Positions 13,185 through 41,815 of a stretch of DNA of 64,000 nt are shown piece after piece. Numbering within the stretch: position 1 is the stretch's first letter; each line of letters begins with the position of its first letter. Source of the DNA: Nitrospira sp. (lineage in GTDB: Bacteria > Nitrospirota > Nitrospiria > Nitrospirales > Nitrospiraceae); NCBI GenBank assembly GCA_018242725.1, contig JAFEBI010000004.1, positions 310,001 to 374,000 of the forward strand. Reading direction: 5' to 3'. The notes beneath the pieces were generated by a model. The model was not told the origin of the DNA. It worked only from the letters and a program-made list of their open reading frames with translations, and ran no database searches. The position numbers and the translations under genes are program-made.

Positions 13185-13228
13185 CCCACAGAAACTGTAG
13201 AAATGGACACGGTTCAGGAGGGACTTTC

Positions 13229-13258: not shown

Positions 13259-13315
13259 TTATTCGAGATGTTTGTTGCGTCGAACTCCTGACGACAGATT
13301 CGGCTCCCTGGCTCT

Positions 13316-13873: not shown

Positions 13874-13959
13874 CGCCTACCACGAGCTTCAGATTCTTCC
13901 ATGAAGGAGTTGGTTAACCCCTTCGACATTTTGGAAATGATTGAACGCTACAGAAGCGC

Positions 13960-14892
13960 TTATTGGATTGGATGAGTGAGGCGAAACCCGTAATCGATCA
14001 GACTCTTTGCGGTTGTCCATCGACGATTCGAATTCAGAATAACAAGTAATAAATCACTACCGTTTTGCGAAACCTTTGCGATCAGGCACCGGCCCGCCTT
14101 GGACGTAAAGCCAGTCTTCACGCCTTCCACGCCGGGAATCCGACCGAGCAGCCGATTCGTATTGTGCAAGACATAGGCGCGATAGCCGCTGATCGGCGTA
14201 ATGATCTCCCGCTCTGCCTTCACCAGATTTCGGAAGGTGGCATTTCGCATGGCCACTTCACTGAGTTTGGCGAGATCTTCCGCCGTTGAGTAGTGATTTG
14301 GGCCATCAAACCCACATCCGTTACTGAAATGCGTGTCTGACAATCCAAGCGCCGCCGCCTTGGCATTCATCAACATGACAAACTGTTCTTCGTCGCCACC
14401 GACGTGTTCGACAGCCGCTAAACAGGCGTCATTCGCCGAGACCATCATCATGGCCTTCAGCAGGTCCCCCAGGCGGAACACTTCGCCGACTTTGATCCGT
14501 AAATGCGTCTTTGGTGCCCTCGCGGCATTCTTGCTGACGGTTGCCAGCTCGTCGAGCCGGGCTCTCTCTAGAATCACCAACGCCGACATAATCTTGGTCA
14601 AACTGGCAGGCGAAAGGCGCTTCTCAGTGTCATGTTCAAAGAGTACGCGCCCCGATCGTAACTCTTTGAGGAGAATGCTATGGGCTGGGATACGCTTCCA
14701 GTGCAGTGCGTGAGGAGCGTAAGTGATTGATCGATCTGCGTCCTGAGTGCTATGTGGGATTCTCGCCTGGGCCAGAAGGGGGGAGACGGCATTCCAGAGA
14801 AATGCGACTACGATCAGAAGTGTGACCCGATAGAAGTCACATCTGCTGTTCCACAGATGATAAGGAGGCCGGATATGATCCTCTCGTGCCAA
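13960..14892 (-). CDS. D-alanyl-D-alanine carboxypeptidase (penicillin-binding protein, S11)
   Basis: Removes the terminal D-Ala from peptidoglycan pentapeptides in the periplasm. 310 residues. An N-terminal signal or anchor is present (VTLLIVVAFLWNAVSPLLAQA). The three active-site motifs are all visible: SxxK in SPASLTKIMSA, SxN in VSANDACLA, and KTG in GVKTGFTSKAG. It stops soon after the catalytic domain and lacks the long C-terminal beta domain and amphipathic helix of DacA, so it is a short S11 form. It is the last of a set of minus-strand genes at 13.9-16.6 kb. Confidence 0.9.
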   Translation of the reverse strand: MAREDHIRPPYHLWNSRCDFYRVTLLIVVAFLWNAVSPLLAQARIPHSTQDADRSITYAPHALHWKRIPAHSILLKELRSGRVLFEHDTEKRLSPASLTKIMSALVILERARLDELATVSKNAARAPKTHLRIKVGEVFRLGDLLKAMMMVSANDACLAAVEHVGGDEEQFVMLMNAKAAALGLSDTHFSNGCGFDGPNHYSTAEDLAKLSEVAMRNATFRNLVKAEREIITPISGYRAYVLHNTNRLLGRIPGVEGVKTGFTSKAGRCLIAKVSQNGSDLLLVILNSNRRWTTAKSLIDYGFRLTHPIQ

Positions 14893-14906
14893 ATACCACC
14901 GCCTCG

Positions 14907-15095
14907 CTAAAACATGAATGATTCCCGAACCTTATCACCTTTTCTCCCGCTATCAATGACTTTGTGAAAGAATCGAAGAAGATCTGCCAGGTCAATCCAG
15001 AATCCGCAGTTGAGGCATCGAGCATAAATTCTGCGATTGAGGAGGGTATAGTGGCGTTCGACCATCATAAACCCTCTGCACTTGAGGCATTGCAT
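14907..15095 (-). CDS. small zinc-ribbon protein, paralogue of 2924-3160
   Basis: 62 residues. CLKCRG near residue 3 and CLNCGF near residue 28 form a two-knuckle zinc ribbon. The start MQCLKCRGFM parallels MKCTRCQGLM of the 78-residue protein at 2924-3160. The tail is basic and helical (LLRFFHKVIDSGRKGDKV). AGGA lies about nine bases before ATG 15095. Function unknown. It lies between the D,D-carboxypeptidase and a small membrane protein. Confidence 0.6.
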   Translation of the reverse strand: MQCLKCRGFMMVERHYTLLNRRIYARCLNCGFWIDLADLLRFFHKVIDSGRKGDKVRESFMF

Positions 15096-15116
15096 ACATG
15101 TCCTGCTCTCTCTAAG

Positions 15117-15323
15117 TTATCGAATTCGATTCATAATCAATGCGACACATCCGGCAAGCAGTCCTCCACCTAGAAGGGTAGTCCCGAAATAGACGAACAC
15201 GTTCGTCCCTCCGGAAGGCTGGGTCCCTTCCCATAAGTCGCGAACCCCACCCTGAACCATCAAGACTGACAGTGTCAGCAGAGCCCCTATCATGAACCAC
15301 CATGCGAAGGATCGAAGCGCCAT
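15117..15323 (-). CDS. small two-span membrane protein
   Basis: 68 residues with two hydrophobic segments, at about 5-24 (SFAWWFMIGALLTLSVLMVQ) and 42-64 (NVFVYFGTTLLGGGLLAGCVALIM), joined by a polar loop with Trp. The ribosome site is weak. I do not recognise a family. The hydrophobic pattern and compact spacing to its neighbours make it a likely gene. Confidence 0.5.
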   Translation of the reverse strand: MALRSFAWWFMIGALLTLSVLMVQGGVRDLWEGTQPSGGTNVFVYFGTTLLGGGLLAGCVALIMNRIR

Positions 15324-15416
15324 TCTTCTGCTCGTAAATCGTGCTTTCTCCGGCCTTTTTCAACTCTAGCGAAGGGCTCCTAAGCTGTCAAGAAATAGCC
15401 TGAGACCGCTCGTGGT

Positions 15417-16619
15417 TCACCCCTTTGGATCAGACCGGACGACGGGCTTGAGCCCACGATGAAGAAAGATAGACACGCTGCCGCTTCCATTGTCTGCAAT
15501 CGCGAGCCCAGGTTCCTCGCTTCCTGACGTGGTGACATGGAACGAACAGAGCGCAAACGGACCGAACTTCGTCCGATAGTTTCTCGGGGGATAGTGAAAG
15601 GTTCCATCGCCTTTCCCGAATAGAATCGACAGATCGTTCGATTGGATATTCACGATTGCCACATCGACCAGCTGATCACCGTTAAAATCCCTGGCAAGAC
15701 CAAAATTTGGACCAGCATCCGCACCGGCATCCTTCCCTGGCCGAAACGTCGCATTCCCGTTTCCCAAAAAAGTCGTGAAGCTATCCTGTTCTCCATTGAT
15801 AACCAGCAGATCGCTATTGTGGTCGTTATTGAAATCTCCAAAACTCACCCCCAACGGCCGCCTGCCAGTGGAATAGTCCTTGGGGTCTCGAAACGTCCCA
15901 TCCCCGTTCCCGAGCCAGACGGACACCGCATTGGACATCGGCCCCCCGTTGGTGACGACGAGATCGATCTTGCCATCGCCGTTGAGATCGGACAGAGCCA
16001 CGGAGGTCGGAGTATCTCCATGCTCATATTGCGCTCCATGTCGCAATTCGCCCTTTCCATTTCCAAGAAACACTTTCACCTTGTCGTTTCGAAGGGCCAC
16101 GGCAAGATCGACATGATGATCGCCATTCACGTCTTCCGCAGCGAGTGACACCGGGCTGCGATGGACCGGATACCGAGCTCCTTCTTCAAATTTTCCGTTC
16201 CCGCGGCCAAGCAGCAGCGCAACTTCATCCCCGCCTGAGCACGCTAAAGCGACATCAGCATGTCCGTCTTCATTAAAGTCATTCAGGGCAAGAGCGCGTG
16301 GTTCCTGGCAAACATGAACCTGCATTTGGTCTTTGAATGTGCCGTCGCCGTTACCGAGTAAAATGGAAACGGTATTGCTCGAAATATTCGTTGTGATCAG
16401 ATCGGTAAACGAGTCGTGATTGAGATCACCGGTCGTAATCGTCGTTGGGTTCTTACCAACGGAGTAACTCGCAAAATAGTAGAACGGATCAGGTGGGAGG
16501 TACGGTTCCGTCTTGGAACAACCCCACAAGCTGATCCCCATGAAGACACAGAGGCCCACCACACTAAAAATAGATCTGACTACATCGCACATCATTTGTG
16601 TACAAACCGCGTTACTCAT
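15417..16619 (-). CDS. FG-GAP/VCBS-repeat lipoprotein
   Basis: 400 residues. A signal sequence ends at a lipobox-like ISLWGC near residue 34. The rest is a string of about seven repeats of roughly 45 residues. Each has a calcium-type loop such as DLNHDSFTDL, DFNEDGHADV, DLNGDGKIDL or DFNNDHNSDL, followed by VSILLGNGDGTF-like strands. These repeats form a seven-bladed beta-propeller like integrin alpha subunits. It is probably anchored in the outer or cytoplasmic membrane and faces outward. Binding or scaffolding is inferred; there is no enzymatic motif. Confidence 0.85.
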   Translation of the reverse strand: MSNAVCTQMMCDVVRSIFSVVGLCVFMGISLWGCSKTEPYLPPDPFYYFASYSVGKNPTTITTGDLNHDSFTDLITTNISSNTVSILLGNGDGTFKDQMQVHVCQEPRALALNDFNEDGHADVALACSGGDEVALLLGRGNGKFEEGARYPVHRSPVSLAAEDVNGDHHVDLAVALRNDKVKVFLGNGKGELRHGAQYEHGDTPTSVALSDLNGDGKIDLVVTNGGPMSNAVSVWLGNGDGTFRDPKDYSTGRRPLGVSFGDFNNDHNSDLLVINGEQDSFTTFLGNGNATFRPGKDAGADAGPNFGLARDFNGDQLVDVAIVNIQSNDLSILFGKGDGTFHYPPRNYRTKFGPFALCSFHVTTSGSEEPGLAIADNGSGSVSIFLHRGLKPVVRSDPKG

Positions 16620-29991: not shown

Positions 29992-30600
29992 TTACCCCCT
30001 TGCTAATTCCTTGAGCCCTTCTCGAATCAGCTCCTTCAGCGCCGGAGAGCCTGAGACCTCTTTCGTCACCCGCATTAGGGCTGCTTTGGCATCTTGAGCG
30101 CGGTAGCCCAAGTGTACCAGAGCGGACAGCGCATCCTCGAAGAGATCATCGAATTCTGCAGGCTCTGCTGCGGAAGAACGGGGGTGGATACCTTGGATCT
30201 TACCGACCTTGTCCTTGAGCTCAAGCGCGAGACGCCCGGCCGACTTCTTGCCGATTCCCGGAACGGTCTCCAGCTTCTCGGTATCCGCAATCTGGATCGC
30301 ATGAACCAAATCTGTAACCGATAAACTCGACAGCACGCTGAGCGCCAATTTAGGGCCGATTCCGGAGACGCTGGTCAACAGCAAAAAGGCCTCCTTCTCG
30401 CTCTGCGAGAGAAAGCCGAACAGCTGGATCGCATCCTCCCGAAGATGCGTATGAATATGCAGCGCCGTACTGTCGTCGAGGTTTGGAAGCGAGTAATAGG
30501 TACTGAGGGGGATATGAACTTCGTACCCGACCCCCTGCACATCAAGCGTCAGATGGGTGGGCGCTTTGACTGCTAACCGCCCCGTGAGAAAGGCGATCAT
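29992..30600 (-). CDS. ruvA: Holliday junction DNA helicase subunit RuvA
   Basis: 202 residues. Seen: the N-terminal OB-fold (MIAFLTGRLAVKAP, GVGYEVHIPL), tandem helix-hairpin-helix motifs (SVSGIGPKLALSVLS and VPGIGKKSAGRLALELKDK), and the C-terminal domain III (ALSALVHLGYRAQDAKAAL) that binds RuvB. It holds the four-way junction as tetramers. No ruvC lies between this gene and yebC, where many bacteria keep it. Confidence 0.95.
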   Translation of the reverse strand: MIAFLTGRLAVKAPTHLTLDVQGVGYEVHIPLSTYYSLPNLDDSTALHIHTHLREDAIQLFGFLSQSEKEAFLLLTSVSGIGPKLALSVLSSLSVTDLVHAIQIADTEKLETVPGIGKKSAGRLALELKDKVGKIQGIHPRSSAAEPAEFDDLFEDALSALVHLGYRAQDAKAALMRVTKEVSGSPALKELIREGLKELARG

Positions 30601-30648
30601 CTCGTCTCGTTATCCGAAGACAAGTGCCATATGAGAGTCACTGGAGCA

Positions 30649-31407
30649 TCAGCCCGCCGCAGTCGCGGCCACTTTCTCCATGACGTCATCCGGAATATCG
30701 AAGTTCGCGTGAACCTTTTGTACATCATCGTGCTCGTCCAGAATTTCCATCAATTTCAGCATTTGTTCGGCCGACTTCTCTTCGAGTCTGATGGTATTCT
30801 GAGGGACGTACGTGACTTCCGCCAGTGTGGTCTCAATCTTTGCGTCAGCCAACGCCTTTTTGACGGCTTCAAATTCGTGTGGCCCGGTAATGATCTCGAT
30901 CGATTTCTCGCCGGTCTTCACGTCTTCCGCTCCGGCATCAAGGGCCAAGGAGAGCAAGGTATCCTCGTCGACCTTTCCTGGTTCGATCGTCAGGAGACCC
31001 TTCTTGTGAAACTGCCACGCGACGGCACCAGCCTCAGCCATGTTGCCATGATTCTTGGTCAACAGACTCCGGATCTCCGCCACGGTTCGATTCCGATTAT
31101 CACTCGTAATATCCAAGAGAAGCGCGGTTCCTCCGGGCCCATAGCCTTCCAACGAAAACTCTTCGTAGGTCACGCCGGGCAGCTCTCCGGTGCCGCGCTG
31201 AATCGCCTTCTTCAAGGTATCGCCCGGCATGTTGGCTTCCTTCGCCTTGGCAATGGCCAGACGAAGTCGTGGGTTCCCGTCCGGATCCCCGCCCGAACGG
31301 GCGGCGATCGTCACCTCACGAATAATTCTGGTAAAGATCTTCCCACGCTTGGCGTCCTGAGCCCCTTTGTGGCGCTTGATCGTCGCCCAATGACTATGTC
31401 CACCCAT
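30649..31407 (-). CDS. YebC/PmpR family (TACO1-like) regulatory protein
   Basis: 252 residues with the full signature start GGHSHWATIKRHKGAQDAKRG, then GGDPDGNPRLRLAIAKAKE, YGPGGTALLLDITSDNRNRT, and an acidic C-terminal domain with LDEHDDVQKVHANFDIPD. Family members act as DNA-binding regulators or as translation factors for problem sequences (family knowledge). Gene order yebC-(ruvC)-ruvA-ruvB is conserved, and here ruvC is missing. Confidence 0.93.
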   Translation of the reverse strand: MGGHSHWATIKRHKGAQDAKRGKIFTRIIREVTIAARSGGDPDGNPRLRLAIAKAKEANMPGDTLKKAIQRGTGELPGVTYEEFSLEGYGPGGTALLLDITSDNRNRTVAEIRSLLTKNHGNMAEAGAVAWQFHKKGLLTIEPGKVDEDTLLSLALDAGAEDVKTGEKSIEIITGPHEFEAVKKALADAKIETTLAEVTYVPQNTIRLEEKSAEQMLKLMEILDEHDDVQKVHANFDIPDDVMEKVAATAAG

Positions 31408-31622
31408 GTGTGTCCTCCTCTATCCAGCCCTACTCTCAGCCGGTTAGAGATGCGTGATAGAGCACGAATGACCTGTGAACGGTTAGAGGTAGCACAGGCC
31501 TCAGAAAGGTGTCAAATCTCACCGGTCTCCGAAGCCATCCGGTTGGGGGCTCTTCAGAATACATCCGCAGTAAGAGGATCGGCAGAAGCGGGAACTACGA
31601 CATACGGCCGCACGACTTTAGG

Positions 31623-32378
31623 CTACTCAAAATACACAAGCAGTTGAAGACCCATGACGACCACGCAGGTCGCCCACGCCACTTCCCAGCGTTTCATTGT
31701 CTTTTCCGAGGTACTGGATACCCATGCCATCATGGCACTCGAGACGGCTGCACCAATACCGAGAGTGCCGAGAAGGGTATGGTGCAACTCGATGATGTGA
31801 TTCGTCGGATGATTCCCGTGCGAGTGAACAAAGAGCAGCAGGGCGCCTAGAAACCCGAGGATAAGCAAAGGAACCGCCCACCCAGGATGCCAGGCCCAAC
31901 TGATTCGACGCAGCGCCTCAGTTATTGCAGCGGCACTCGAAAAGAATCCGTAGAATTTATGCTGAAGAATTTCAGGATCCTGGCCGGAGAAGGTCTGTGC
32001 GAACGTGAGTGACCCGATCGGCCAGGCCGCATGATCACTCCAAATTAAGAGATACACCCCGAGGACTCCGAGCGCGCCCGGCAACACCAAGCGAGTCCAG
32101 CCCGGTACCGGATACTGCAACGCATGCCCCAACTCCGCCAGGCCAAACAGCAGAACGAATAATCCAGCGAACCGATGGTTGAACTCAGAATAGGCGACCC
32201 CTTGGATCGACCCTTCCCACGTATCCCCATCCTGTTCACGATGCGACCCATGGTTCTGGTGGACTGGAGGAGAAATTACAGAGTGTTCCCAAGATGATTG
32301 GGCAGAAATAGTGCCGCCCGAGGAGGAAAACGCAACCGTCAGCAGCAGTACAGACAGCAGAGGAGCCCGCCACTTCAT
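31623..32378 (-). CDS. histidine-rich multi-span membrane protein
   Basis: 251 residues from ATG 32378. An upstream ATG at 32426 would fall inside a terminator hairpin, so I reject it. A signal-like span is followed by about six membrane spans. Histidines cluster at predicted membrane edges: QNHGSH, EFNHRFAG, WSDHAAWP, LQHKFYG and HSHGNHPTNHIIELHH. This pattern suggests metal (copper or iron) or heme binding, as in CopD-like or cytochrome-like proteins, but no family motif decides it. It is the only gene on its transcript. Confidence 0.68.
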   Translation of the reverse strand: MKWRAPLLSVLLLTVAFSSSGGTISAQSSWEHSVISPPVHQNHGSHREQDGDTWEGSIQGVAYSEFNHRFAGLFVLLFGLAELGHALQYPVPGWTRLVLPGALGVLGVYLLIWSDHAAWPIGSLTFAQTFSGQDPEILQHKFYGFFSSAAAITEALRRISWAWHPGWAVPLLILGFLGALLLFVHSHGNHPTNHIIELHHTLLGTLGIGAAVSSAMMAWVSSTSEKTMKRWEVAWATCVVVMGLQLLVYFE

Positions 32379-32417
32379 GCCATCGCACCATTGACCGAAC
32401 GACCGTACAACAGAGGA

Positions 32418-32449
32418 AAGGCCCATCCAGACGGCCGGATGGGCCTTTC
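32418..32449 (-). terminator. rho-independent terminator of the 32475-33197 gene
   Basis: Arms 32418-32429 and 32438-32449 are perfect 12-bp complements (AAAGGCCCATCC/GGATGGGCCTTT) with an eight-base loop. Read on the minus strand the hairpin follows the zinc-ribbon/PCP_red gene stop by 25 bases and ends in TTT. The T-tract is short. Confidence 0.7.
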
Positions 32450-32474
32450 GCTTCCTGAGAGAACCAGATTGTTC

Positions 32475-33197
32475 TTACATGAACTTCATGAACTTATCTT
32501 TGGCTTCGTCCATCACCTGTGCCGTGATGGTGGATTCTCCACGTTCCTTGGCCATCCGCTCCACCTCTTTGCGGGCCATGGGACGAATGAAGTCAGGAAT
32601 ATTTTCCAACCGCTGCTCGGCTTCGCGTGACCAGGTCATACCCTCAGGGGAGTAATTCTTCGAGTCATCCATCACTTGTAGCGTGATCGACGTAAATCCC
32701 TGCTTGCGGGCATAGCCCTCCACACTCGCTTGCACCATCGGCTTCACAAAGGCTGGAAGCCGATCAAGCTTCTCTTTAGCATCGGGAGTCCATGTGAATT
32801 CAGAAGGCCCGCCATTGGCTGGCTTACCGGAGTTAGTCAGGCCCATTTCCGCCACCATCGCGGAGAATGGACAGCCACTCGCCTTCTCAGGAGCCTTCGC
32901 CGGCGAGGCCGCAGTTGCCGCCACGGCTGGTGCAGCAGGACTCGGCTTCGTCGAGGCAGCTGCTTGGCCATTTCCCGCTACCGCCCGTAACCCTTCCATA
33001 GAGGCTGCCGGCTCCGCCTTTGCCCCCAACTTCAGCCCCAGCGAATTCATCATGTTCGTTTCACCGGCATTCGTGACCATCGAAAACTTCGCATTACACG
33101 AAGGGCAGGCAAAGAAAACACCAAGCGAGCCTTCCTCCGGCTTCTCCACCTTTTCGAGACTCATATATGTTTCACAGTTCAAACAGACAAATTTCAT
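32475..33197 (-). CDS. zinc-ribbon protein with two PCP_red-type domains
   Basis: 240 residues, start supported by GAGGAG. The N-terminus is a zinc ribbon (CLNC near residue 5, CPSC near residue 31). A low-complexity Ala/Pro linker follows, with a single CPF motif near residue 109. Two copies of the PCP_red-type domain complete it: about 132-180 (FTWTPDAKEKLDRLPAFVKP, ending ITLQVMDDSK) and 187-238 (MTWSREAEQRLENIPDFIRP, ending ITAQVMDEAK). The same domain is repeated four times in the protein at 17484-18479. No catalytic nitrogenase-like part. Function unknown; the ribbon hints at regulation or a scaffold. Confidence 0.75.
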   Translation of the reverse strand: MKFVCLNCETYMSLEKVEKPEEGSLGVFFACPSCNAKFSMVTNAGETNMMNSLGLKLGAKAEPAASMEGLRAVAGNGQAAASTKPSPAAPAVAATAASPAKAPEKASGCPFSAMVAEMGLTNSGKPANGGPSEFTWTPDAKEKLDRLPAFVKPMVQASVEGYARKQGFTSITLQVMDDSKNYSPEGMTWSREAEQRLENIPDFIRPMARKEVERMAKERGESTITAQVMDEAKDKFMKFM

Positions 33198-33356
33198 ACA
33201 GACTCCTCACCACCCTCGTCAGGTGGTTGTGACAGCGTTTCAAGCCTATGACATAACAAAACCTACGCTATCACAAGGATTTTGAGGGAGTCAAACCGGT
33301 CAACTGGTGAGAATGTACGAGTTGCGCCGACGTGATCTTACAGATTGTGCATCGTC

Positions 33357-33386
33357 TTGATGCCGTGATCACCCCTGCGGTATGGT
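33357..33386 (+). promoter_or_regulatory. possible promoter of the TIR-TPR operon
   Basis: TTGATG at 33357-33362 and TATGGT at 33381-33386 are 18 bases apart. Both hexamers are four-of-six matches to the sigma-70 consensus. The ATG at 33418 follows 31 bases later, with AGGA eight bases before it. Confidence 0.35.
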
Positions 33387-33417
33387 ACCGACACGTTGCT
33401 CTACGTAGGATGCCCTT

Positions 33418-34380
33418 ATGCCCAGCGCCTTCCTCAGTTACTCTCGCGAAGATCTCGCCCTCATTGAACAGCTCGAAGCGCGCCTCAAGGCTTCATCTCC
33501 TAACATTTCCATCTGGCGCGACCAGGAAAAGATCTACGGTGGGCAGAAATGGCCGAAGGTCTTGGGGGAGGCCATCGCCCATCAGGACGTGTTTCTCCTC
33601 GCCTGGTCAAAAAACTCAGTGGCCTCGCACTTCGTCGAGTTCGAATGGTGTACGGCCCTCGCGCTCAAGAAGACGATCGTACCCTGTCTCTTAGATAGCA
33701 CCGCACTACCACCGTCACTGACGGCAACGAACGCAGTCGCCATCAATGATGACCCCTCGAAGCTCGTCACAGCCCTCACTGGAGCTCACCCCGTCGCAGA
33801 TGTCGTCCGGCGGGCTGAAATCCGTAACAAACTGGACCAGATCACGGATACCGAACCAAGAGAGGTTTTGAAAGCCGCGAAGACGCTGTTCGACCAACGA
33901 GGCTGGACGGTACAGGGAAATGTCATACAGGGGGAGTGCGTCACCGTCCATATGGGCGAAGGAGCCGCACCAGCCGCGAAAGGCCTCGCTGAGAAATGGC
34001 AGACCTGGGTTGGCACCCTCGTCGGAATACTCACAGCAGTGACTCTGATGTCTGAGCTGCCAGCAAAGATAAAACCTGTACCCCCTCCGCCATCCGGCCC
34101 TACAACACCTAAGATAGAATCAAACAAGCCAAAGCTCCAAACACTGGTCGGCGCGATACGGACTGCCGGCGACGATCCACTTGACGAGGTGCAGGTCTCG
34201 CTTCCACGGTTCAACCTCACGACCACCACCGACAAATTCGGCCAATTTCGTTTCCGGGTGATGACATCTGAACAAGAGACTGTCGCCCTTCTGGCTCAGA
34301 AACCAGGCTACCAGCCCTATGAAGCCGATGTAACTCTAGGAAACCCAGCGCTGGGATTCACCATGAGAAAGAAGCCATGA
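33418..34380 (+). CDS. membrane-anchored TIR-domain protein with an extracytoplasmic beta-sandwich
   Basis: 320 residues. The N-terminal TIR domain (TIR_2 type), about 3-120, shows FLSYSREDLALIEQLEARL, DQEKIYGGQKW, FLLAWSKNSVASHFV, the probable catalytic Glu76 in EFEW, and IVPCLLD. TIR domains with this Glu are often NAD+ glycohydrolases (family knowledge). A short segment with GNVIQGECVTVHMGEG follows at about 167-183. One membrane span lies at about 194-213 (TWVGTLVGILTAVTLM), then a Pro-rich linker. A CarboxypepD_reg-like domain at about 242-317 (LVGAIRTAGDDPLDEVQV, LTTTTDKFGQFRF) should lie outside the cytoplasm. Its stop overlaps the start of the giant repeat protein by four bases, so they are made together. 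Confidence 0.85.
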   Translation: MPSAFLSYSREDLALIEQLEARLKASSPNISIWRDQEKIYGGQKWPKVLGEAIAHQDVFLLAWSKNSVASHFVEFEWCTALALKKTIVPCLLDSTALPPSLTATNAVAINDDPSKLVTALTGAHPVADVVRRAEIRNKLDQITDTEPREVLKAAKTLFDQRGWTVQGNVIQGECVTVHMGEGAAPAAKGLAEKWQTWVGTLVGILTAVTLMSELPAKIKPVPPPPSGPTTPKIESNKPKLQTLVGAIRTAGDDPLDEVQVSLPRFNLTTTTDKFGQFRFRVMTSEQETVALLAQKPGYQPYEADVTLGNPALGFTMRKKP

Positions 34381-37300
34381 CTCGACAATTCCTTATAACA
34401 AGTGCACTGTGTTGCCTTCTTGTTCCCAGCACATCCCTGGCAAAGGATCGCTTTCTACAAGGACGCGTGCTCCTCGTGGGTGAACAGGATGAACTAAAGC
34501 CGCTGCCCGGCCAAGACGTAATCCTCGTCGAGTCTGGTGATAGGACACGAACCAAAGAAGGTGGCCAGTTTCGGCTCTTTCTGAAAGAGCTCTATAAGCC
34601 CGGCACACGAATCACGCTGACCGTAGAAAAGAATGGTTATAGGATCCAATATCCGTTGGATGGGGAAGCGCGTGTCCCCGACGACCTGGAAAAGGAGCTA
34701 GTTGACGTCCGGCTGCTCCCTGTCGGTTCAAAAAAATTCTGGTCTGCGGACCGCATCGAGAAATTCATCAAAGACACCGCGGACAAGTCCAAAGAGCAGG
34801 TCCGTCCGAAAGGCAAACCCGAGGAGATCGATTTCAGCCGCTACATTAAAGACTGGGCCGTGAAGTATGGCTTCAGCGCACAACAAGCGAAGACCGAGAT
34901 CGATAAGTGGGCGGCAGAGGCTGAACAGCGAAACGATCCCTATGAGCTGGGCTTAGCTGCCTATGTGAAAAAGAATTTTGGCGAGGCAGGTAAGCACTTC
35001 GAAGCGTCCGCTACGGAAAAGGTTCGCCGCATCCAGGAAGCCACAGCTACCGCCCAGGAGCTAACAGAGGAGGCCTCCTATGATTTTAGGCTCGCAGGTG
35101 AGGCCCACATCAATAATTATCAATTCGACCAGGCATTGATTGCCTTTCGAAAAGCTTTAGACCTTATCTCACCGGAAAAACAGCCATTGCTCTGGGCAAG
35201 CACGACCGCCCTAGTGGGAACAGCATCTCAGCAGATAGGGATTCGTGCCAAGGCAGACAGCATCCATCAGCATCTGCACCAGGCCGTCGAATCCTACAAA
35301 GCCGCACTCACAGTCTTCACAAAAGATGTCTACCCACAAGAATGGGCTGACACACAAGACTTACTTGGTACTGTACTTTGGGAGCAAGCCCAGCGCACCA
35401 GCGGCGAGGCCGGGACCCTGCTGGTCCCTCAGGCGATTGCGGCCTTCAAGTCAGCACTCACGGTCCGCACGAAAAAGGCTCTGCCACAAGAGTGGGCCAT
35501 GACGCAGAACAACCTCAGCCTCGTCCTGTGGCAACAAAGCATTCACACCAGCCGTGAGGCCAGCACTCAACAGCTCGCGCGGGCGGTTGCGGCCCTCAAG
35601 TCAGCACTCACGGTCTTCACAAAAGACGAGCTCCCACAAGAGTGGGCCATGGCGCAAAACAACCTCGGCTTCATTCTGTGGCAACAAAGCACTCACACAA
35701 GCCGTAAGAACGGTGCTCGCTTGCTCCCCCAAGCCGTCGCAGCCTTCAAGGCAGCGCTCACAGTCCACACAGAAGAGGCGCTCCCACAAGAGTGGGCGAG
35801 GACCCAGCTAGCCCTCGGCCTTGCCTTGCAGACCCAAGGCCGGCAGACCAGCGGGGAGGCCGGCACCCAGCTCCTCGCCCAAGCCGTCGAGGCCTACCGT
35901 GCCGCCCTCACGGTCTACACAAAAGACGCGCTCCCACAACAGTGGGCGACGACACAACTCACCCTCGGCCTCGTCCTGCAGGCTCAAGGCGAGCGCACCA
36001 GCGGGGAGGCCGGCAGCCAGCTCCTCACCCAAGCCATCGAGGCCAACCAGGCCGCGCTCACGGTCAACACAAAAGACGCGCTCCCACAACAATGGGCGGC
36101 GACACAACTCACCCTCGGCCTCGTCCTGCAAACCCAAGGTGAGCGCATTAGCGGCGAGGCCAGCACCCGCTTACTCGCCCAGGCCGTTGATGCCTTCAAG
36201 TTAGCCCTCACAGTCTTCACAAAGGGCACGTTCCCTCAACAATGGATAGCGCTGCAGATCGCCCTTGGTAGCGTCTCGCAAAGCCAAGGCCAGCGCACCA
36301 GTGGCGAGGCCAGCACCCAGCTCCTTGCCCAGGCTGCCGAGGCTTACCGATCAGCCCTCACAGTTTACACAAAGGCGGCGCTTCCGCAAGACTGGGCCAA
36401 GACGCAAAACAGACTCGGCAGCGTGCTGTGGAACCAAGGCACTCGCACCAGCGGGGAGGCCGGCACTCAGCTCCTCGCCCAGGCCATCGAAGCCTACAAG
36501 GCTGCGCTCACGGTCTACACAAAAGATGCGCTCCCACAACAGTGGGCGGCGACCCAGATCGCCCTCGGCCTCGTCCTGCAGACTCAAGGTGAGCGCACCA
36601 GCGGCGAGAGCGGCACCCAGTTGCTTGCCCAGGCCATTGATGCCTACAAGGCCGCCCTCAGAGTTTATACGAAAACGACGCGCTCACAAGACTGGGCAAA
36701 GACACAGGCTGCTCTCGGCTTCGTCATGCAGATCCAAGGCCGACGCACTGGTGGCGAGACCGGCACCCGCCTGCTTGCCCAGGCCATTGATGCCTACAAG
36801 GCCGCCCTCACGGTTTATGTGAAAGACGCGCTCCCGCAAGACTGGGCAAAGACACAGGCCGCCCTCGGCTTCATCCTGGAGACCCAAAGCCGGCACACTG
36901 ACGGCGAGGCTGGCACCCGCTTGCTTGCCCAGGCCATTGATGCCTACAAGGCCGCCCTCGTGATCTACACGAAAGGTGGGTCCCCACAAGATTGGGCTGA
37001 GACACAAGACTTGTTCGGCACTGCACTGTGGAACCAAGGCAGCCGCACCAGTGGTGAGGCCGGCACTCAGCTCCTTGCCCAGGCTGCCGAGGCTTACCGC
37101 GCCGCACTCACTATCCGAACGAAAGAGGCGCTCCCGCAAGCCTGCGCATGTACCCTGAACAACCTCGGTCGCGTCCTAATGGACCAAGGCACCCGCACTA
37201 GTGGCGAAGCTGGCGTTCAACTCCTCGCCCAAGCCGTCGAGACCTATCGTGCCGCCCTCACCATCCGCACGAAAGAAGCGCTCCCGAAACAGTGGGCAGA

Positions 37301-38750
37301 AACGCAAAGTTATCTAGGCAGCGCGCTAACGAACCAAGGCCAGCGCACCAGTGGCGAGGCCGGCACCCAGCTCCTTGCCCAGGCTGCCGAGGCTTACGGC
37401 GCCGCCCTCACGGTTCTAACGAAAGAGGAGCTCCCGGAACAGTGGGCAGGAACCAAGCTTAGTCTAGGAAATGTATACCTCGATCAGGGACGCGCTGTTC
37501 CAAAGCCGGAAGCTGCTCCCTTCTTCCACAACGCGATCACTGCCTACAACGAGGCCTTGTCCGTCTACACTAAGGAGGCGTTCCCTAAAGATTGGGCTAG
37601 CACCTACTCCAACATCGGCCTTGTATTACGTGCCCAGGGCACACGGGCTGAAGGAGAGGAGAGCCTCCGTCTCCTGGCCAACGCTGAGGCTGCGTACCGT
37701 GAGGCGTTGACGGTCTACACGAGAGATGAGATCCCGAAACAGTGGGCGATAACGCAAACCAGTCTCGGCAATGTAATTATGGACCAAGGCACCCGCACCA
37801 GTGGCGAGGCCGGCACCAAACTCCTCGCCCAGGCGGCCGAGGCCTATCGCGCTGCCCTCACCGTCCGTACCAAAGAGGCGTTTCCGGAAGACTGCGCATG
37901 CACTCTGAATAATCTCGGCAACGTGCTGCACGCCCAAGGCACCCGCACCGAGGGCGCGGCGGGCACGCAGTTACTCGCCGAATCCGTCGACGCATATCGC
38001 GCCGCGCTCACGGCTCGCACTAAAGAAACACGCCCGCAACAGCGGGCCGCGACCCAACTGGACCTTGGCGCTGTGCTAAGTGACCTAGGACACCGGGCCG
38101 CCGGGACTGACAGTCTGCGCCTGCTCCAGGCTGCCGTGGCCGCATACCGTGACGCGCTTACCGTCTATACACAGGCAGCATTTCCGCAAGAGTGGGCGAG
38201 CACCCAGACGAACCTCGGCGCTGCGTTAAGCGACCAAGGCATACGCACAGACGGGAAGGCTAGCATGCGTCTCCTTGCTCAAGCTGCTGAGGCTTTTGAT
38301 GCGGCTCTGACGGTCTACACAAAAAAAGAACTTCCGCAGCAATGGGCCATGACCTCCGGGAATCTCACAGAGGCGTTATTCCTCAGCGGTCAATTTGTCA
38401 AAACGAAAGAGCAGCTAGCGATGTTACTTGGGCATGAGGGCCTGAGGCTATCTGAAACGGGGGCATTGTGGTTCATCTCAATCGCTAATTCCATAGGACT
38501 CGGCGACCGCAAGCAGACTCTCGACGACTTCGAGATAATCTCCCGTGTTCTGAACGAGCAGAGTCCCGACTTCGCACTAACGTGGGACTTTAGCTCGATA
38601 AAAATATCACTCTCAAAGCATCACGTGTTTGCCAAGCATCGGCAATGGCTGCTACATCTCGTCGAGACATTCCAGAGCGGTCGGCGGAATGAAATGCTTG
38701 CTGCAGTCCAAAACGGTAGCGAAGCTTTCAGAAAGACTGCGAAGCCCTAG
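34377..38750 (+). CDS. giant exported TPR-like repeat protein (1457 residues)
   Basis: A signal peptide (FLITSALCCLLVPSTSLAKD) is followed by a CarboxypepD_reg-like beta domain at about 25-115 (LQGRVLLVGEQDELKPLPGQ, RTKEGGQFRLFL). This is the same fold type as the C-terminus of the upstream TIR protein. A helical linker with degenerate TPRs covers about 130-297. Residues 298-1347 are 21 units of exactly 50 residues, consensus (Q/R)LLAQAxEAYxAALTVYTKxA then LPQxWAxTQxxLGxVLxxQGxRTSGEAGT. This is a TPR-related helical hairpin plus an insertion loop. A 110-residue non-repeat end follows. It has no enzymatic motif. ATGA overlap with the TIR gene suggests a two-component complex. Confidence 0.85.
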   Translation: MTRQFLITSALCCLLVPSTSLAKDRFLQGRVLLVGEQDELKPLPGQDVILVESGDRTRTKEGGQFRLFLKELYKPGTRITLTVEKNGYRIQYPLDGEARVPDDLEKELVDVRLLPVGSKKFWSADRIEKFIKDTADKSKEQVRPKGKPEEIDFSRYIKDWAVKYGFSAQQAKTEIDKWAAEAEQRNDPYELGLAAYVKKNFGEAGKHFEASATEKVRRIQEATATAQELTEEASYDFRLAGEAHINNYQFDQALIAFRKALDLISPEKQPLLWASTTALVGTASQQIGIRAKADSIHQHLHQAVESYKAALTVFTKDVYPQEWADTQDLLGTVLWEQAQRTSGEAGTLLVPQAIAAFKSALTVRTKKALPQEWAMTQNNLSLVLWQQSIHTSREASTQQLARAVAALKSALTVFTKDELPQEWAMAQNNLGFILWQQSTHTSRKNGARLLPQAVAAFKAALTVHTEEALPQEWARTQLALGLALQTQGRQTSGEAGTQLLAQAVEAYRAALTVYTKDALPQQWATTQLTLGLVLQAQGERTSGEAGSQLLTQAIEANQAALTVNTKDALPQQWAATQLTLGLVLQTQGERISGEASTRLLAQAVDAFKLALTVFTKGTFPQQWIALQIALGSVSQSQGQRTSGEASTQLLAQAAEAYRSALTVYTKAALPQDWAKTQNRLGSVLWNQGTRTSGEAGTQLLAQAIEAYKAALTVYTKDALPQQWAATQIALGLVLQTQGERTSGESGTQLLAQAIDAYKAALRVYTKTTRSQDWAKTQAALGFVMQIQGRRTGGETGTRLLAQAIDAYKAALTVYVKDALPQDWAKTQAALGFILETQSRHTDGEAGTRLLAQAIDAYKAALVIYTKGGSPQDWAETQDLFGTALWNQGSRTSGEAGTQLLAQAAEAYRAALTIRTKEALPQACACTLNNLGRVLMDQGTRTSGEAGVQLLAQAVETYRAALTIRTKEALPKQWAETQSYLGSALTNQGQRTSGEAGTQLLAQAAEAYGAALTVLTKEELPEQWAGTKLSLGNVYLDQGRAVPKPEAAPFFHNAITAYNEALSVYTKEAFPKDWASTYSNIGLVLRAQGTRAEGEESLRLLANAEAAYREALTVYTRDEIPKQWAITQTSLGNVIMDQGTRTSGEAGTKLLAQAAEAYRAALTVRTKEAFPEDCACTLNNLGNVLHAQGTRTEGAAGTQLLAESVDAYRAALTARTKETRPQQRAATQLDLGAVLSDLGHRAAGTDSLRLLQAAVAAYRDALTVYTQAAFPQEWASTQTNLGAALSDQGIRTDGKASMRLLAQAAEAFDAALTVYTKKELPQQWAMTSGNLTEALFLSGQFVKTKEQLAMLLGHEGLRLSETGALWFISIANSIGLGDRKQTLDDFEIISRVLNEQSPDFALTWDFSSIKISLSKHHVFAKHRQWLLHLVETFQSGRRNEMLAAVQNGSEAFRKTAKP
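35268..38417 (+). repeat. 21 tandem 150-bp units coding the 50-residue TPR-like repeats
   Basis: Every unit starts in exact 150-bp register from 35268 (unit 1) to 38268 (unit 21). The DNA itself is alike: the segment coding TSGEAGTQLLAQA recurs with few changes in units 5, 8-9 and 13-14 among others. Units 1-3, 10 and 15-16 are more diverged, and the middle units most alike. This points to recent homogenisation by recombination or slippage, so copy number may vary between strains. Confidence 0.9.
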
Positions 38751-39137
38751 GTTGAACGGGGAATCTTTGCCCCACGTGTGACTCCGCCAGCGCAGGGCCA
38801 CCCCAGTCTTTGTAACTCCTATAGGTTTTCTGAAAATCGGGTTTGCTGAGGATGCGCACGACGTCGATGCGAGTTCCGGATCGTTTGAAAAGGAAATATG
38901 GGGTCGTGTCTTGTTTATTCCGATAGCTCCCCTACCAACGTAGCCACGTTGCCGCCCCACTGCAGACCACCCGGCAACGCAGTTGTACACCCTGCGTAAT
39001 TGGACTTTGCACACCCCGATGTTTGCGATGGTTCCAGCGGTTAACCTGCGTTGCTCTGGTAGTGTGTTCACAACCAATCTGCTAGTATCAAAAACTGTGC
39101 TGTAGCTTGAGGGCAGTGTCATAACCACGATGTCTTG
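38751..39137. other. intergenic stretch between convergent operons
   Basis: No intact gene. On the minus strand, near 38800-38920, one frame reads YFLFKRSGTRIDVVRIL, which recalls the end of ParE/RelE-type toxins, but stops surround it. It may be toxin debris or chance. No tRNA or clear terminator was found. Confidence 0.3.
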
Positions 39138-39260
39138 CAGGTTGTTCAAAAAGGCCTCCCAGCGAGGCCGCAGCGAGTGAATGGCCGAAGCGTACCCTCT
39201 GGGGTACGTTGAGGGTCTGAACGGTGCGAGAACAAAGCTGGAGGACTTTTAAACAGCCTG
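39138..39260. repeat. palindromic element, copy 1
   Basis: The two ends are near-complementary over about 25 bases (39138-39163 against 39237-39260), with an inner perfect stem CGTACCC/GGGTACG at 39191-39208 allowing one G-T shift. The left arm contains CAGCGAGGCCGCAGCGAG and the right arm GAGAACAAAGCTG. Both motifs recur in the element at 44059-44179. It ends immediately before the stop codon of the helix-hairpin-helix gene. This looks like a dispersed intergenic palindrome (REP/MITE type). Confidence 0.75.
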
Positions 39261-41255
39261 TTAGTGTGTCTCCGGCGTGGTACTCGGAGGCTGATCGTCG
39301 CCGAGCCACTGCTTATACTTCTTATAGTGCTCGACCTTTGCGCTGCGCACCAAGTTTTCTTGTTGGATCCGCCCCTCAAAGTTTGGTAGGAGGAATTCAA
39401 ATTTGTCGATGTCCGCTTGTTTCCAGGTCGCCACCTGACTGAACCAGAAGACGCCTCGGTTGTGCAGAAATTGTTCTAACGCCGGCCCGACCCCATCGAT
39501 CTGTTTCAAGTCATCGGGCGACTCTCCAACCGCTTGCCCCTCTTCTGACGGCCCAGTGGCACTCGCATGGTCGCGATCTCCTACGTGCTCACTCACTTGG
39601 GCGGTTGGCGCCACCCCATTCTGTTGCGTAGGAGTCTCGATCTCCGTCTCTATACTCTGTTCCCAAGCTTGTGAGGACGCAGCTTGGATCTCAGCCATCT
39701 GTCCAGGCAGGTCGAGGCTCTCTCTCGGGGGCTCGCCGTCGCCGAGCCACTGCTTATATTTCTTGTAGTGCTCGACCTGCGCACTGCGCACCCAGTTTTC
39801 CCGTTGGATCCGCCCTCCAAAGTTGGGCAAGAGGAATTCGAATTTGTCGATATCCGCTGGGCTCCAGGTCGCCACCTGCCGGAACCAGAAGACGCCCCGT
39901 TTGTGGAGAAACCGTTCTAACGCCGGACCGACCCCGCGGATATATTTCAGATCATCAGGCAACGCTTTATCTGTTTCTCTCTCATCCGCTTGCTCGACAG
40001 TGTCAGCCTGACCCAGGTCCCCCGCTGGTTCGCTGATCGTTTCACCCACCGCAGCTCCACTCTTCAGGACAATCTCCTCAGTGGAAGTCTCAGCCACTTT
40101 CACCTCAGCCTGTAAAGATGCAGCTTGGATCTCAGCCATCTGTCCAGGCAGGTCGAGGCTCTCACCTGGGGACTCGCCGTCGCCGAGCCACTCCTGATAC
40201 TTCTTGTAGTGCTCGACCTGCGCACTGCGCACCCAGTTTTCCCGTTGGATCCTCCCTCCAAAGTTGGGCAGGAGGAATTCGAATTTGTCGATATCTACTG
40301 GGCTCCAGGTCGCCACCTGCCGGAACCAGAAGACGCCCCGTTTGTGGAGAAACCGTTCTAACGCCGGCCCAACCCCTCGGATGTGTTTCAGATCATCAGG
40401 CGAAGCTCCGACCGCTTCTCCCTCAACCGTCTGCTCACTGACACTGGCTTGGTTGGATTCCGCAGCGCGCTCACTGACCTGTGCGGGTGGTTCCTCTCTA
40501 TATTGTTCTACGGGAGTCTCTGGCCGCTTCTCGGCGACCTTCTCACCGACCTGCAGCAACAGGTCCCGGAGCTCAGCCATCTGCGAACGAAGATCGGCGA
40601 TGACGGCCACTTCGCCTTCGAGCGCCTTGATCCGGGCCAGGTGCTCTGGATTGTCGGCCGGCACCACCACACGCTCTTCGATACTCTTCACTCCTGCTTG
40701 CGAAGAAGCGGTTTGGGCCTGTGCGATCTGTGCTAAAAAACCAGCAATGACGACAATCTCTTCTTCCACCGCCTTGATCCGGGCCAGATGCTCCGGATTG
40801 TCGACCGGCACCACTACTCGCTCTTCGACGCTCCTCCCCCCAACCTGCGACGCAACGGTTTGAAACTGCGCAATCTGCGGGAGCAGCCCGGCAATCATGG
40901 CCACCTCGCCTTCCAACGCCTTGATCCTAGCCAGGTACTCCTGATTGTCGACCGGCCGATCTACGACTTTCTCCACGGTCTTTTCAATCGGCACCTCTAC
41001 GCGCTTCTCAATGATCTTCTCGACCGGCACCTCAACATGTTTCACCACTACGCGTTCGACCGGTACCTCCACCCGCTTCTCAACCGTTCGAACTTCCGGC
41101 GGTTGATTGGTGAGCATGGTGACCTTCGTCCTGAGGCGGTCCAGCTCACGACGCTTTTCATCCATTACTGGCCCCAGCACCATGCCCTTGATCCCCCACC
41201 CAAGGCATCCTGCTCCCACCAACGTCCAGAACCAGCATGCCCAGCTACCAGACAT
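39261..41255 (-). CDS. membrane-anchored coiled-coil protein with three helix-hairpin-helix modules
   Basis: 664 residues. A membrane anchor lies at about 5-30 (WFWTLVGAGCLGWGIKGMVL). Then come 12-residue Val/Glu/Pro repeats (RVEVPVE, HVEVPVE, RVEVPIE) and three 49-residue coiled-coil units with NPEHLARIKALEGEV. Finally three modules start at residues 287, 434 and 581, exactly 147 residues apart. Each has DDLK-I-GVGPALE-FLH-RGVFWF-QVATW, then DIDKFEFLLPNF and VEHYKKY. This is the H3TH-like domain found in predicted FEN1-like proteins and in many envelope proteins. The OmpA-like gene starts the same transcript. Nuclease activity is not supported, since no catalytic residues are visible. Confidence 0.8.
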   Translation of the reverse strand: MSGSWACWFWTLVGAGCLGWGIKGMVLGPVMDEKRRELDRLRTKVTMLTNQPPEVRTVEKRVEVPVERVVVKHVEVPVEKIIEKRVEVPIEKTVEKVVDRPVDNQEYLARIKALEGEVAMIAGLLPQIAQFQTVASQVGGRSVEERVVVPVDNPEHLARIKAVEEEIVVIAGFLAQIAQAQTASSQAGVKSIEERVVVPADNPEHLARIKALEGEVAVIADLRSQMAELRDLLLQVGEKVAEKRPETPVEQYREEPPAQVSERAAESNQASVSEQTVEGEAVGASPDDLKHIRGVGPALERFLHKRGVFWFRQVATWSPVDIDKFEFLLPNFGGRIQRENWVRSAQVEHYKKYQEWLGDGESPGESLDLPGQMAEIQAASLQAEVKVAETSTEEIVLKSGAAVGETISEPAGDLGQADTVEQADERETDKALPDDLKYIRGVGPALERFLHKRGVFWFRQVATWSPADIDKFEFLLPNFGGRIQRENWVRSAQVEHYKKYKQWLGDGEPPRESLDLPGQMAEIQAASSQAWEQSIETEIETPTQQNGVAPTAQVSEHVGDRDHASATGPSEEGQAVGESPDDLKQIDGVGPALEQFLHNRGVFWFSQVATWKQADIDKFEFLLPNFEGRIQQENLVRSAKVEHYKKYKQWLGDDQPPSTTPETH

Positions 41256-41260
41256 GACGA

Positions 41261-41815
41261 CTATTCTCCCGTGGTTCCGATGAACAATTCGATTCTTCGG
41301 TTTTGCCGGTGCCCCTCATTGGTGACACTCTCAGCGATCAATGGTGATGCGTCGTGCCCTTTGGGAATCAGCCGTTCAGCTGCGATTCCCTGTGCGACCA
41401 AATACTCGACGACGGCGTTGGCACGCTGTTCCGAGAGCATCTGATTCGCACGCTCCGGTCCACTGTTGTCCGTCTGACTGTTGACTTCAACGGTCACCGT
41501 TGGGTCTTCGCGTAACATCGCGACCACGCCATTCAAGACGACTTTCCCGTCCGACAGAAGGGTCGGGCTGTTAATTCGGAATGGAATCGCCTTACCGATC
41601 AGCAGGTCATCATTCTTTTTTTTCGCCGGCGCAGAGACCGGCGGTGGCGGCACCTGAATGTTTTTCGAAGCCGGTGGAACATTCTCAGCGGGGTGCTCCA
41701 GTGTAACCGGTGGAGATGACGTCACCGCCCCTTTCCCACAGAAAAAGAACGTCATCCCAAGGATGACTACCCCAAGAATTACCAAAAACGGATCTTTGCC
41801 CTGCATGACCATCAC
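41261..41815 (-). CDS. OmpA-family membrane-anchored peptidoglycan-binding protein
   Basis: 184 residues. The N-terminal span (FLVILGVVILGMTFFFCG) is followed by a Pro-rich linker (VPPPPVSAPAKKK). A C-terminal OmpA domain covers about 75-180: FRINSPTLLSDGKVVLNGVV, VNSQTDNSG, ANQMLSEQRANAVVEYL, HRQNRRIELFI. The hydrophobic stretch ends in FFCGKG, so it could be either a lipoprotein signal or a plain anchor. The stop is 5 bases before the coiled-coil/HhH gene, so the two are one operon and probably one envelope complex. Confidence 0.85.
   Translation of the reverse strand: MMVMQGKDPFLVILGVVILGMTFFFCGKGAVTSSPPVTLEHPAENVPPASKNIQVPPPPVSAPAKKKNDDLLIGKAIPFRINSPTLLSDGKVVLNGVVAMLREDPTVTVEVNSQTDNSGPERANQMLSEQRANAVVEYLVAQGIAAERLIPKGHDASPLIAESVTNEGHRQNRRIELFIGTTGE

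Follow-up and report, generated by a model that had tools for sequence, protein, structure and literature searches.

A two-gene cassette of Nitrospira coding for a TIR protein and an exported TPR protein with a predicted membrane-spanning, Toll-like-receptor-like layout

The window analysed here, i.e., the whole stretch of 64,000 nucleotides from Nitrospira sp. (contig JAFEBI010000004.1, positions 310,001–374,000), carries two adjacent genes in the same orientation, whose features are collected in Table 1. An ORF check of the window returned 33418–34380(+), coding for a TIR protein of 320 aa, and 34377–38750(+), coding for an exported TPR protein of 1457 aa. The four-base overlap between the stop of the first gene and the start of the second, already described in the original prediction made on this DNA, reads ATGA and recurs in several homologous pairs, including one from Bacteroidota (L078).

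Table 1. Features of the TIR/TPR locus (positions in the window)
Feature	Position	Strand	Basis
Accessory cassette, ~5.96 kb, absent at the same site in sister genomes	33300..39257	.	
TIR protein (TIR, helical linker, hairpin, membrane span, outer sandwich)	33418..34380	+	
TIR domain, aa 1–120, predicted cytoplasmic	33418..33777	+	TIR_2 profile; AF2 fold
E76 codon, predicted catalytic glutamate	33643..33645	+	GAA; invariance and SARM1 alignment
Linker, helices and hairpin motif WTVQGNVIQGECVTVHMG	33778..33987	+	
Single membrane span, ~aa 191–216, predicted N-in/C-out	33988..34065	+	Hydropathy in 19 homologues, charge bias
Outer transthyretin-like/CarboxypepD_reg domain, aa 239–315	34132..34362	+	
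ATGA stop/start overlap of the two genes	34377..34380	+	Sequence
Exported TPR protein, 1457 aa	34377..38750	+	
Signal peptide, aa 1–22, Sec type, no lipobox	34377..34442	+	Sequence
Head, second beta-sandwich, aa 26–115	34452..34721	+	Homology to L033 model
TPR solenoid, 50-aa units, aa 270 to ~aa 1319	35184..38333	+	
C-terminal tail, conserved among full-length members	38334..38747	+	

At the N-terminus of the TIR protein, residues 5–110 matched the Pfam family TIR_2 with 63.4 bits (cut-off 28). By structure comparison the AF2 fold of this domain matched the TIRs of ThsB, SARM1, SPARTA and AbTir (Z 11–14), the model being of middling quality, with pLDDT of ~72–83 over most of the domain and low values at residues 37–43, in the BB-loop region. 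Glu76 is unchanged in 19 TIR domains of the family, spanning two phyla, and was aligned with the catalytic glutamate of SARM1 ('KDWVHKEIVTAL'). The two marks of NADase-type TIR proteins, the fold by profile and a catalytic Glu in helix C, were both found, as foreseen by the original prediction of a TIR domain with a probable catalytic Glu76, and we lean towards predicting that the domain is a regulated NADase.

The linker following the TIR domain, with its WTVQGNVIQGECVTVHMG motif, is common to TIR-NACHT proteins and to other TIR-TM relatives in Nitrospira, while some distant pairs are devoid of it. The hydropathy of the putative membrane span (Kyte-Doolittle) is weak in the window copy (1.53) and ranges from 1.6 to 2.9 at the matching place in 18 homologues; AF2 placed a helix, at low confidence, at residues 191–211. 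Lys and Arg are commoner on the N side of the span (53 vs 34), which fits an N-in orientation. The outer sandwich, modelled with pLDDT of 80–96, scored 30.6 bits with the Pfam family CarboxypepD_reg, just under the cut-off of 32.3, and its structural matches included the NTE domain of SusC (Z 12.4) and human carboxypeptidase D (Z 12.2). The membrane span and outer beta-sandwich originally proposed are both retained, the former on hydropathy in 19 homologues and the latter now assigned to the transthyretin-like/CarboxypepD_reg fold.

The second gene codes for the exported repeat protein of 1457 residues that had been anticipated, with a signal peptide and ~22 TPR units, each of exactly 50 aa, followed by a tail. 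The signal peptide reads MTRQFLITSALCCLLVPSTSLA and is followed by KD, and a hydrophobic export-type segment starts every intact homologue. In the homologue L033, AF2 strands were found at residues 26–115, i.e., in the head, and a distant homologue weakly matched CarbopepD_reg_2; this second, N-terminal sandwich was absent from the original description. The TPR fold of L033 matched the TPR domain of LGN with Z up to 27. A match to CAP12-PCTIR (20.1 bits, under cut-off) was discounted, as it sits within the TPR repeats.

The number of TPR repeats ranges from 2 to 22 across members, and variation within the unit is concentrated on one face of helix A (entropy periodicity of 100 degrees, P=0.00045), with none in helix B. 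This variable face comprises positions 6, 9, 10, 13, 16, 17 and 20, and its pN/pS is 1.03 against 0.39 for the rest, the positions having been first chosen on the window protein itself; in held-out proteins the effect was weaker (0.78 vs 0.37), and it was missing from some distant members and from Bacteroidota. A recognition surface of this kind, coupled to a TIR domain acting as death effector, might act in telling self from non-self, or in contact recognition, within biofilms and flocs rather than in phage defence, in the manner of kin discrimination or contact killing. Nitrospira live in flocs and biofilms, and the variable face and the changing repeat number would be in keeping with such a role, as would the fungal hetero-incompatibility proteins, whose variable sensors are TPR or WD repeats (PMC10907252). 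No secretion or contact system adjoins the pair, however, and we regard contact recognition as rather unlikely.

A profile of the exported head found the TPR protein in 24 of the 270 genomes of the host's class, and in all 24 the TIR gene lies directly upstream on the same strand; the TPR protein was never seen without TIR among the 270. TIR members devoid of the exported head carry a different C-terminus (NACHT with several TMs, as in a relative of the TIR module fused to NACHT, L048, or other TM sensors) or are fragments. A Bacteroidota MAG contig holds both genes, overlapping, and represents a cross-phylum copy, while no more pairs came up at E 1e-20 among 395 genomes sampled from the Bacteroidota class. 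Since 19 homologous pairs are intact or near-intact, with dN/dS of 0.04–0.5 in most comparisons, the pair is not due to chance. The two genes very probably form an obligate two-gene transmembrane unit. Six or so of the 24 copies, about a quarter, are broken by stops or frameshifts, often in both genes, and the pair has been gained and lost, as might be expected of a selfish or decaying accessory cassette with no present role; the low dN/dS of most intact pairs and the retention of both genes across phyla make this reading very improbable.

The same pattern of occurrence bears on the sign of the control. The exported TPR protein might constantly hold the TIR domain off, the opposite of a sensor that switches it on, so that TIR would become free to kill once the TPR protein is lost, cleaved or sequestered through the action of a phage or of a rival's protease or through damage to the envelope. 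The overlapping genes with the effector first, the TPR protein that never occurs without TIR, the damaged loci often hit in both genes and the toxin-antitoxin genes found at the same site would all suit such a guard. On the contrary, a range of 2 to 22 repeats and a variable face suit recognition better than a fixed inhibitor, and some TIR members survive without a TPR gene, with other C-termini; inhibition is in our opinion an unlikely, though not negligible, explanation.

Co-divergence ties together the parts of the two proteins that would face each other outside. Among 11 Nitrospira pairs, divergence of the outer sandwich followed that of the head (Mantel r=0.94), also when controlling for TIR (partial r=0.925, P=0.0002), whereas TIR versus head, controlling for the sandwich, gave 0.07 (n.s.). 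The corresponding sandwich-head values across all 19 pairs were 0.89 and 0.84, and part of the co-divergence could come from DNA adjacency and from recombination near the span-coding stretch. In one genome (G070) the two proteins are naturally fused in one chain, in the order TIR-span-sandwich-TPR-tail, which would leave the TPR across the membrane from the TIR domain; no other fusion was found. As far as sequences can tell, co-divergence and natural fusion together support that the outer parts of the two proteins are linked, physically or in function, and these parts probably bind each other.

With respect to sister genomes, the pair is a clean insertion in the window. One of them (G087, L125) aligns to window positions 30001–33299 and again from 39258 on, with just 425 bp between, and in another (G128) ~138 bp separate 33299 from 39268. 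Patchy occurrence and empty sites amount to accessory, mobile behaviour, and the usual site is a hotspot beside ettA, which HipA and MNT-HEPN also occupy. The cassette ends were searched for terminal repeats and no convincing direct or inverted pair was found. At the right end lies a palindromic interspersed repeat of ~125 bp (39134–39260), of which the genome has ~29 other, partial copies; it was rejected as the cassette carrier, not being next to the pair in other genomes. No copy was confirmed in viral contigs, none was found in the phage collection, and the plasmid collection held no copy of the pair and one partial TIR only, from Methylomagnum.

The flanks of the pairs are mostly housekeeping genes, with HipA, MNT-HEPN (a PDC-S09 candidate), MNT and PIN toxin-type genes near some copies. 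A defence-family scan of the flanking proteins detected no established multi-gene anti-phage system adjoining the pairs; the ABC ATPase EttA matched mad3 and mad8, which was taken as generic. The placement in defence islands proposed as a check with the original prediction is hence weak, toxin-type genes sharing the site and no complete known system lying in the flanks. Confinement to housekeeping envelope operons, the outcome that would have spoken against a defence role, was not observed either: the pairs are stand-alone cassettes at changing sites. A housekeeping-operon reading was rejected, as the neighbours vary by site and the copy in the window is an insertion. Periplasmic scaffolds do commonly contain transthyretin-like and TPR domains, and a non-enzymatic TIR domain might connect a TPR scaffold outside with a partner in the cytoplasm, in envelope housekeeping or signalling; considering the patchy distribution (24/270), the changing sites outside envelope operons and a Glu76 invariant over two phyla, we find this improbable.

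The pair did not coincide with known TIR-containing or related systems. The TIR domain is weakly ThsB-like (20.7 bits), and among 98 flanking proteins there was no ThsA family at E 1e-10 and no CD-NTase family. A SAVED_TIR match was confined to the TIR part and a Pfam scan showed no SAVED domain, as in CBASS/TIR-SAVED, nor, in either protein, an NTPase domain, as in STAND/NLR-like systems (Avs, bNACHT). PADLOC and NCBIfam gave weak matches only, all to the TIR part. A profile of the full-length TIR protein found no match in the PDB, and a TIR-only profile was required; with it the nearest solved sequence relative was Cat1 (PDB 9mud, E=3e-7), a CRISPR-associated, CRISPR-linked TIR filament whose alignment to the pair is limited to the TIR part. 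A PDB entry named 'tetratricopeptide repeat protein' (9m0n) has a weakly TIR-like N-terminus (E 0.39). SpbK, AbTir, TIR-STING, SPARTA and Thoeris ThsB share with the pair the TIR fold and an identically placed catalytic Glu, but none of them couples a membrane-spanning TIR to an exported TPR protein. Bacterial TIR NADase defence proteins are generally described as working with cytoplasmic sensors, and bacterial TIR immunity as responding to signals that are produced or encountered within the cell.

Membrane-associated arrangements have been proposed before. EACC1 is a proposed two-gene conflict system with a single conserved span, in which a membrane sensor triggers an effector (PMC7159879, 2020); it resembles the pair in all these respects, but there the partner carries the effector, a caspase or cyclase, domains that a Pfam scan found in neither of our proteins, and that work describes no TIR-span-sandwich protein and no exported TPR partner. 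Predicted conflict-system sensors located in the periplasm or secreted are DGR-diversified (PMC10907252), being retroelement-diversified C-type lectins and NTPase based, whereas the pair has TPR and no NTPase. The periplasmic domain of the anti-phage complex Zorya must contact the cell wall (PMC11890865), and Zorya, unlike the pair, has an ion-driven ZorAB motor, a nuclease effector and no TIR. The genome of the window also codes for a TIR-Cadherin-like-TM-FGE protein (G000, L060:7431-9899) that, like the TIR protein, combines TIR with one span and a C-terminal domain expected to lie outside, although as a single protein whose outer part is an FGE-sulfatase domain. Searches of the literature for TIR with carboxypeptidase-regulatory and TPR domains, or for periplasmic TIR defence, left the pair undescribed, which is weak evidence because subscription papers and preprints were mostly uncovered. 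The novelty originally claimed needs to be moderated in view of EACC1 and the periplasmic conflict sensors, although this particular pair was not among the proposals in the literature searched.

Animal Toll-like receptors consist of an outer solenoid ectodomain, one span and an inner TIR. The pair would be like them in having TIR inside, one span and a solenoid outside, and its TIR fold resembles TLR-type TIRs; it differs in having TPR instead of leucine-rich repeats, two proteins and a TIR-first order. It does not belong to the Toll-like receptors, no leucine-rich-repeat ectodomain being on the same chain and the TPR being a separate gene. A Toll-like-receptor-like layout is supported by predicted topology, charge bias and fusion, and the likeness is an analogy, with no descent claimed.

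The membrane-spanning sensor-effector system originally put forward is supported in part, namely in the spanning architecture, the exported partner, the obligate pairing (24/24), the predicted catalytic Glu and the tie between the outer domains. It is on our reading a roughly even call whether the two genes form a membrane-spanning conflict system in which TIR is the effector of a split receptor, and the odds are similar that the purpose is to counter phage or rivals, by immunity or by self-killing. In the mechanism we propose, the two sandwich domains would dock to each other in the periplasm, and the TPR protein would thereby act as ectodomain of the split receptor. An external or periplasmic protein, from a phage, a rival cell or a damaged envelope, would be bound by the variable solenoid face, and binding would cluster or rearrange the receptors until the TIR domains meet inside. 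Such a meeting would matter, as the active site of TIR NADases forms only upon contact between TIR domains; in SpbK, TIR self-association activates the NADase (PMC12847820). The assembled TIRs would then cleave NAD+, or produce an ADP-ribose signal, and the cell would be stopped or killed. Taken as a whole, a bacterial split Toll-like receptor, with an extracytoplasmic TPR protein of diversifying face docking via matched transthyretin-like domains on a membrane-spanning TIR NADase and triggering it from outside the cytoplasm, is a tentative proposal.

One Nitrospira TIR-linker module is joined to several C-termini (span and sandwich, NACHT with multiple spans, other spans), thus offering a natural series for how inputs swap on one effector. 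If the proposal is true, an exported sensor wired through the membrane to TIR would let the cell respond while an invader enters or even earlier, envelope-stage sensing would be a mode of TIR immunity, and bacteria would possess, built from different parts, a layout known elsewhere from the Toll-like receptors of animals.

Both open reading frames of the pair lie at the coordinates originally given, and the TIR and TPR genes overlap by the four bases ATGA. In the TIR protein, a helical linker carrying the motif WTVQGNVIQGECVTVHMG leads from the TIR domain to a membrane span, after which come a stretch rich in proline and the C-terminal sandwich. An AlphaFold2 model, built with 13 family members, gave a pLDDT of about 72-83 over most of the TIR domain (low at residues 37-43) and of 80-96 over the sandwich. 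By structure comparison, the modelled TIR domain matched the TIRs of ThsB, SARM1, SPARTA and AbTir (Z 11-13), and the sandwich was transthyretin-like, with matches to the SusC NTE (Z 12.4), carboxypeptidase D (12.2) and teneurin (11.9). Comparison of 19 family TIR domains, from Nitrospira, a second Nitrospirales family and one Bacteroidota MAG, revealed no variation at E76, nor at F5, S7, Y8, W33, D35, G42, W45, P46, W63, S64, S70, E74 and W77. The family TIR profile, whose matches among solved structures included Cat1, SARM1 and AbTir, aligned E76 with the Glu of SARM1 KDWVHKEIVTAL, the known catalytic residue. The TIR domain thus has the enzyme-type pocket residue, in accordance, at the sequence level, with the probable catalytic role originally predicted for Glu76.

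Coordinates of the gene pair, its relatives and neighbouring features (window positions unless a locus is named)
Feature	Coordinates	Strand	Remarks
TIR protein	33418-34380	+	320 aa; TIR_2 63.4 bits
E76 codon	33643-33645	+	
Membrane span of TIR protein	near aa 191-216		one span
Exported TPR protein	34377-38750	+	1457 aa
Palindromic interspersed repeat	39134-39260		about 125 bp
OmpA-domain gene and 664-aa protein	39261-41815	-	664-aa protein with repeated helix-hairpin-helix units and VEKRVEVPVE-type repeats
Intact pair	L078:5165-8814		Bacteroidota contig, Flammeovirgaceae MAG; same overlap, all domains
Fusion in genome G070	L036:8835-10883		single 682-aa ORF: TIR, span, truncated sandwich, TPR units, tail
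TIR-linker module, NACHT, about ten spans	L048:6657-9566; L049:2143-5103, 12785-15745		NACHT-like region in L049
Two tandem exported-type TPR genes	L047:27-3587		genome G127; behind a frameshifted TIR gene
E2-like and ThiF-like gene pair	L116:12980-14736		at ettA spot
Second membrane-spanning TIR protein	L060:7431-9899	-	predicted span aa 451-469

The exported partner begins with a signal peptide and a head sandwich, continues through helical hairpins and a series of TPR units, each exactly 50 aa long (the window protein has about 22, relatives 2 to 10), and ends in a tail. A close relative of 842 aa (L033) was modelled at a pLDDT of 88.6, and its solenoid matched the TPR domain of LGN, a peptide-binding solenoid, with a Z of 27. 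Variation was concentrated at positions 6, 9, 10, 13, 16, 17 and 20, forming one face of helix A, the helix that lines the inner groove of TPR proteins, and was periodic in helix A (P=0.00045) but not in helix B (P=0.45). At these seven positions pN/pS was 1.03, versus 0.39 elsewhere; in held-out proteins the values were 0.78 and 0.37, with a strong signal in Nitrospira and none in several of the distant relatives. The solenoid therefore looks like a recognition surface. Between genomes, the domains were under purifying selection in most comparisons (dN/dS 0.04-0.5).

Distance matrices of the outer sandwich and of the partner's head were strongly correlated among 11 Nitrospira pairs (Mantel r=0.94, P=0.0002; partial r=0.925 given the TIR domain), as well as among all 19 pairs (0.89; partial 0.84). 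Since the correlation of the sandwich with its own TIR domain was only 0.48 and that between TIR domain and head, with the sandwich accounted for, was 0.07 (n.s., same 11 pairs), the sandwich tracks a domain of the partner protein more closely than its own TIR. The simplest reason would be that sandwich and head bind physically, with the caveat that the two are neighbours in the DNA, so that recombination breaking close to the span would also shift both as a block. A TIR domain inside and a sandwich outside is the best reading of the sequences, given the Lys/Arg bias around the span (53 on the N-terminal versus 34 on the C-terminal side in 19 homologues), the lack of a signal peptide in the TIR protein, the co-variation of the exported partner with the region C-terminal to the span, and also the fusion found in G070. 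The window's span is the weakest of the homologue set. The fusion, which comes from one genome and may have arisen by deletion, sets the TPR units beyond the span, as a receptor would need.

Of 175 genomes in the family, 26 had a TIR relative, as did 31 of 236 in the order; the exported head was present in 24 of the 270 class genomes. In all 24 the TIR gene lay directly upstream on the same strand, with no case of an exported protein lacking it. The converse fails: in some genomes the TIR module carries a different C-terminus, namely NACHT and many spans (L048, L049), a different outer domain after the span (L046) or another C-terminus after the span (L051). The locus joining the TIR-linker module to NACHT or a NACHT-like region is duplicated in genome G006. 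All matches among 396 sampled genomes of the window's phylum fell inside its order. The intact pair on the Bacteroidota contig lies among genes of Bacteroidota appearance, and no other pair was retrieved from 395 sampled genomes of the MAG's class.

In the window the pair occupies an insertion: the sister genome G087 aligns over 30001-33299 and resumes from 39258, with 425 bp between, and the sister G128 has about 138 bp at this site and its own pair elsewhere. The repeat bordering the window's site (folding z -4.6, about 29 further partial genome copies) is MITE- or REP-like. The adjacent 664-aa protein seems variable in repeat number, since it aligns to sister genomes in multiple, shifted blocks. 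Most other Nitrospira copies occupy a second fixed spot, adjoining the ABC-F gene ettA, where pair-less genomes carry FAD monooxygenase, methyltransferase and E2/ThiF-like genes; HipA and MNT-HEPN toxin-antitoxin genes also occur there. This neighbourhood (e.g. L043, L044, L056, L116) is a small hotspot of HipA, MNT-HEPN, TIR proteins and the E2-like/ThiF-like pair. In the second Nitrospirales family and on the Bacteroidota contig the neighbours are unrelated. Scoring of location in defence islands, proposed as a check of the immune role, gave no sign of a classical island: PADLOC detected no established system among 98 flanking proteins. Flanking MNT proteins matched the candidate family PDC-S09; EttA matches to mad3/mad8 were read as generic ABC matches. 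The changing sites, the insertion and the absence of established systems among these flanking proteins indicate that the pair is accessory and portable and probably lies outside classical defence islands.

On the features tested, the pair does not belong to Thoeris, CBASS, STAND/NLR or EACC1 systems. Its layout is similar to that of a Toll-like receptor, from which it differs by the TPR, the two genes and the TIR-first order, and the likeness is one of analogy only. Another membrane-spanning TIR protein of the window's genome (L060) combines TIR, two Cadherin-like sandwich domains and an FGE-sulfatase domain that, lying after the span, would face outside. The arrangement had been proposed to be new: no description of a TIR/exported-TPR gene pair was found in the searchable literature, but outward sensing is not a wholly new idea, since predictions already existed of membrane-associated conflict systems made of two genes (PMC7159879) and of conflict sensors in the periplasm (PMC10907252). 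In SpbK and others, TIR self-association is an established means of activation (PMC12847820). In the pair, control may be by an activating sensor or by loss of an inhibitor, and the trigger may be a phage, a rival or envelope damage. In the Nitrospira pair, the sandwich domains of the two proteins would dock into a split receptor, a ligand at the TPR face would cluster it, and the TIR domains would then associate inside the cell and cleave NAD+.
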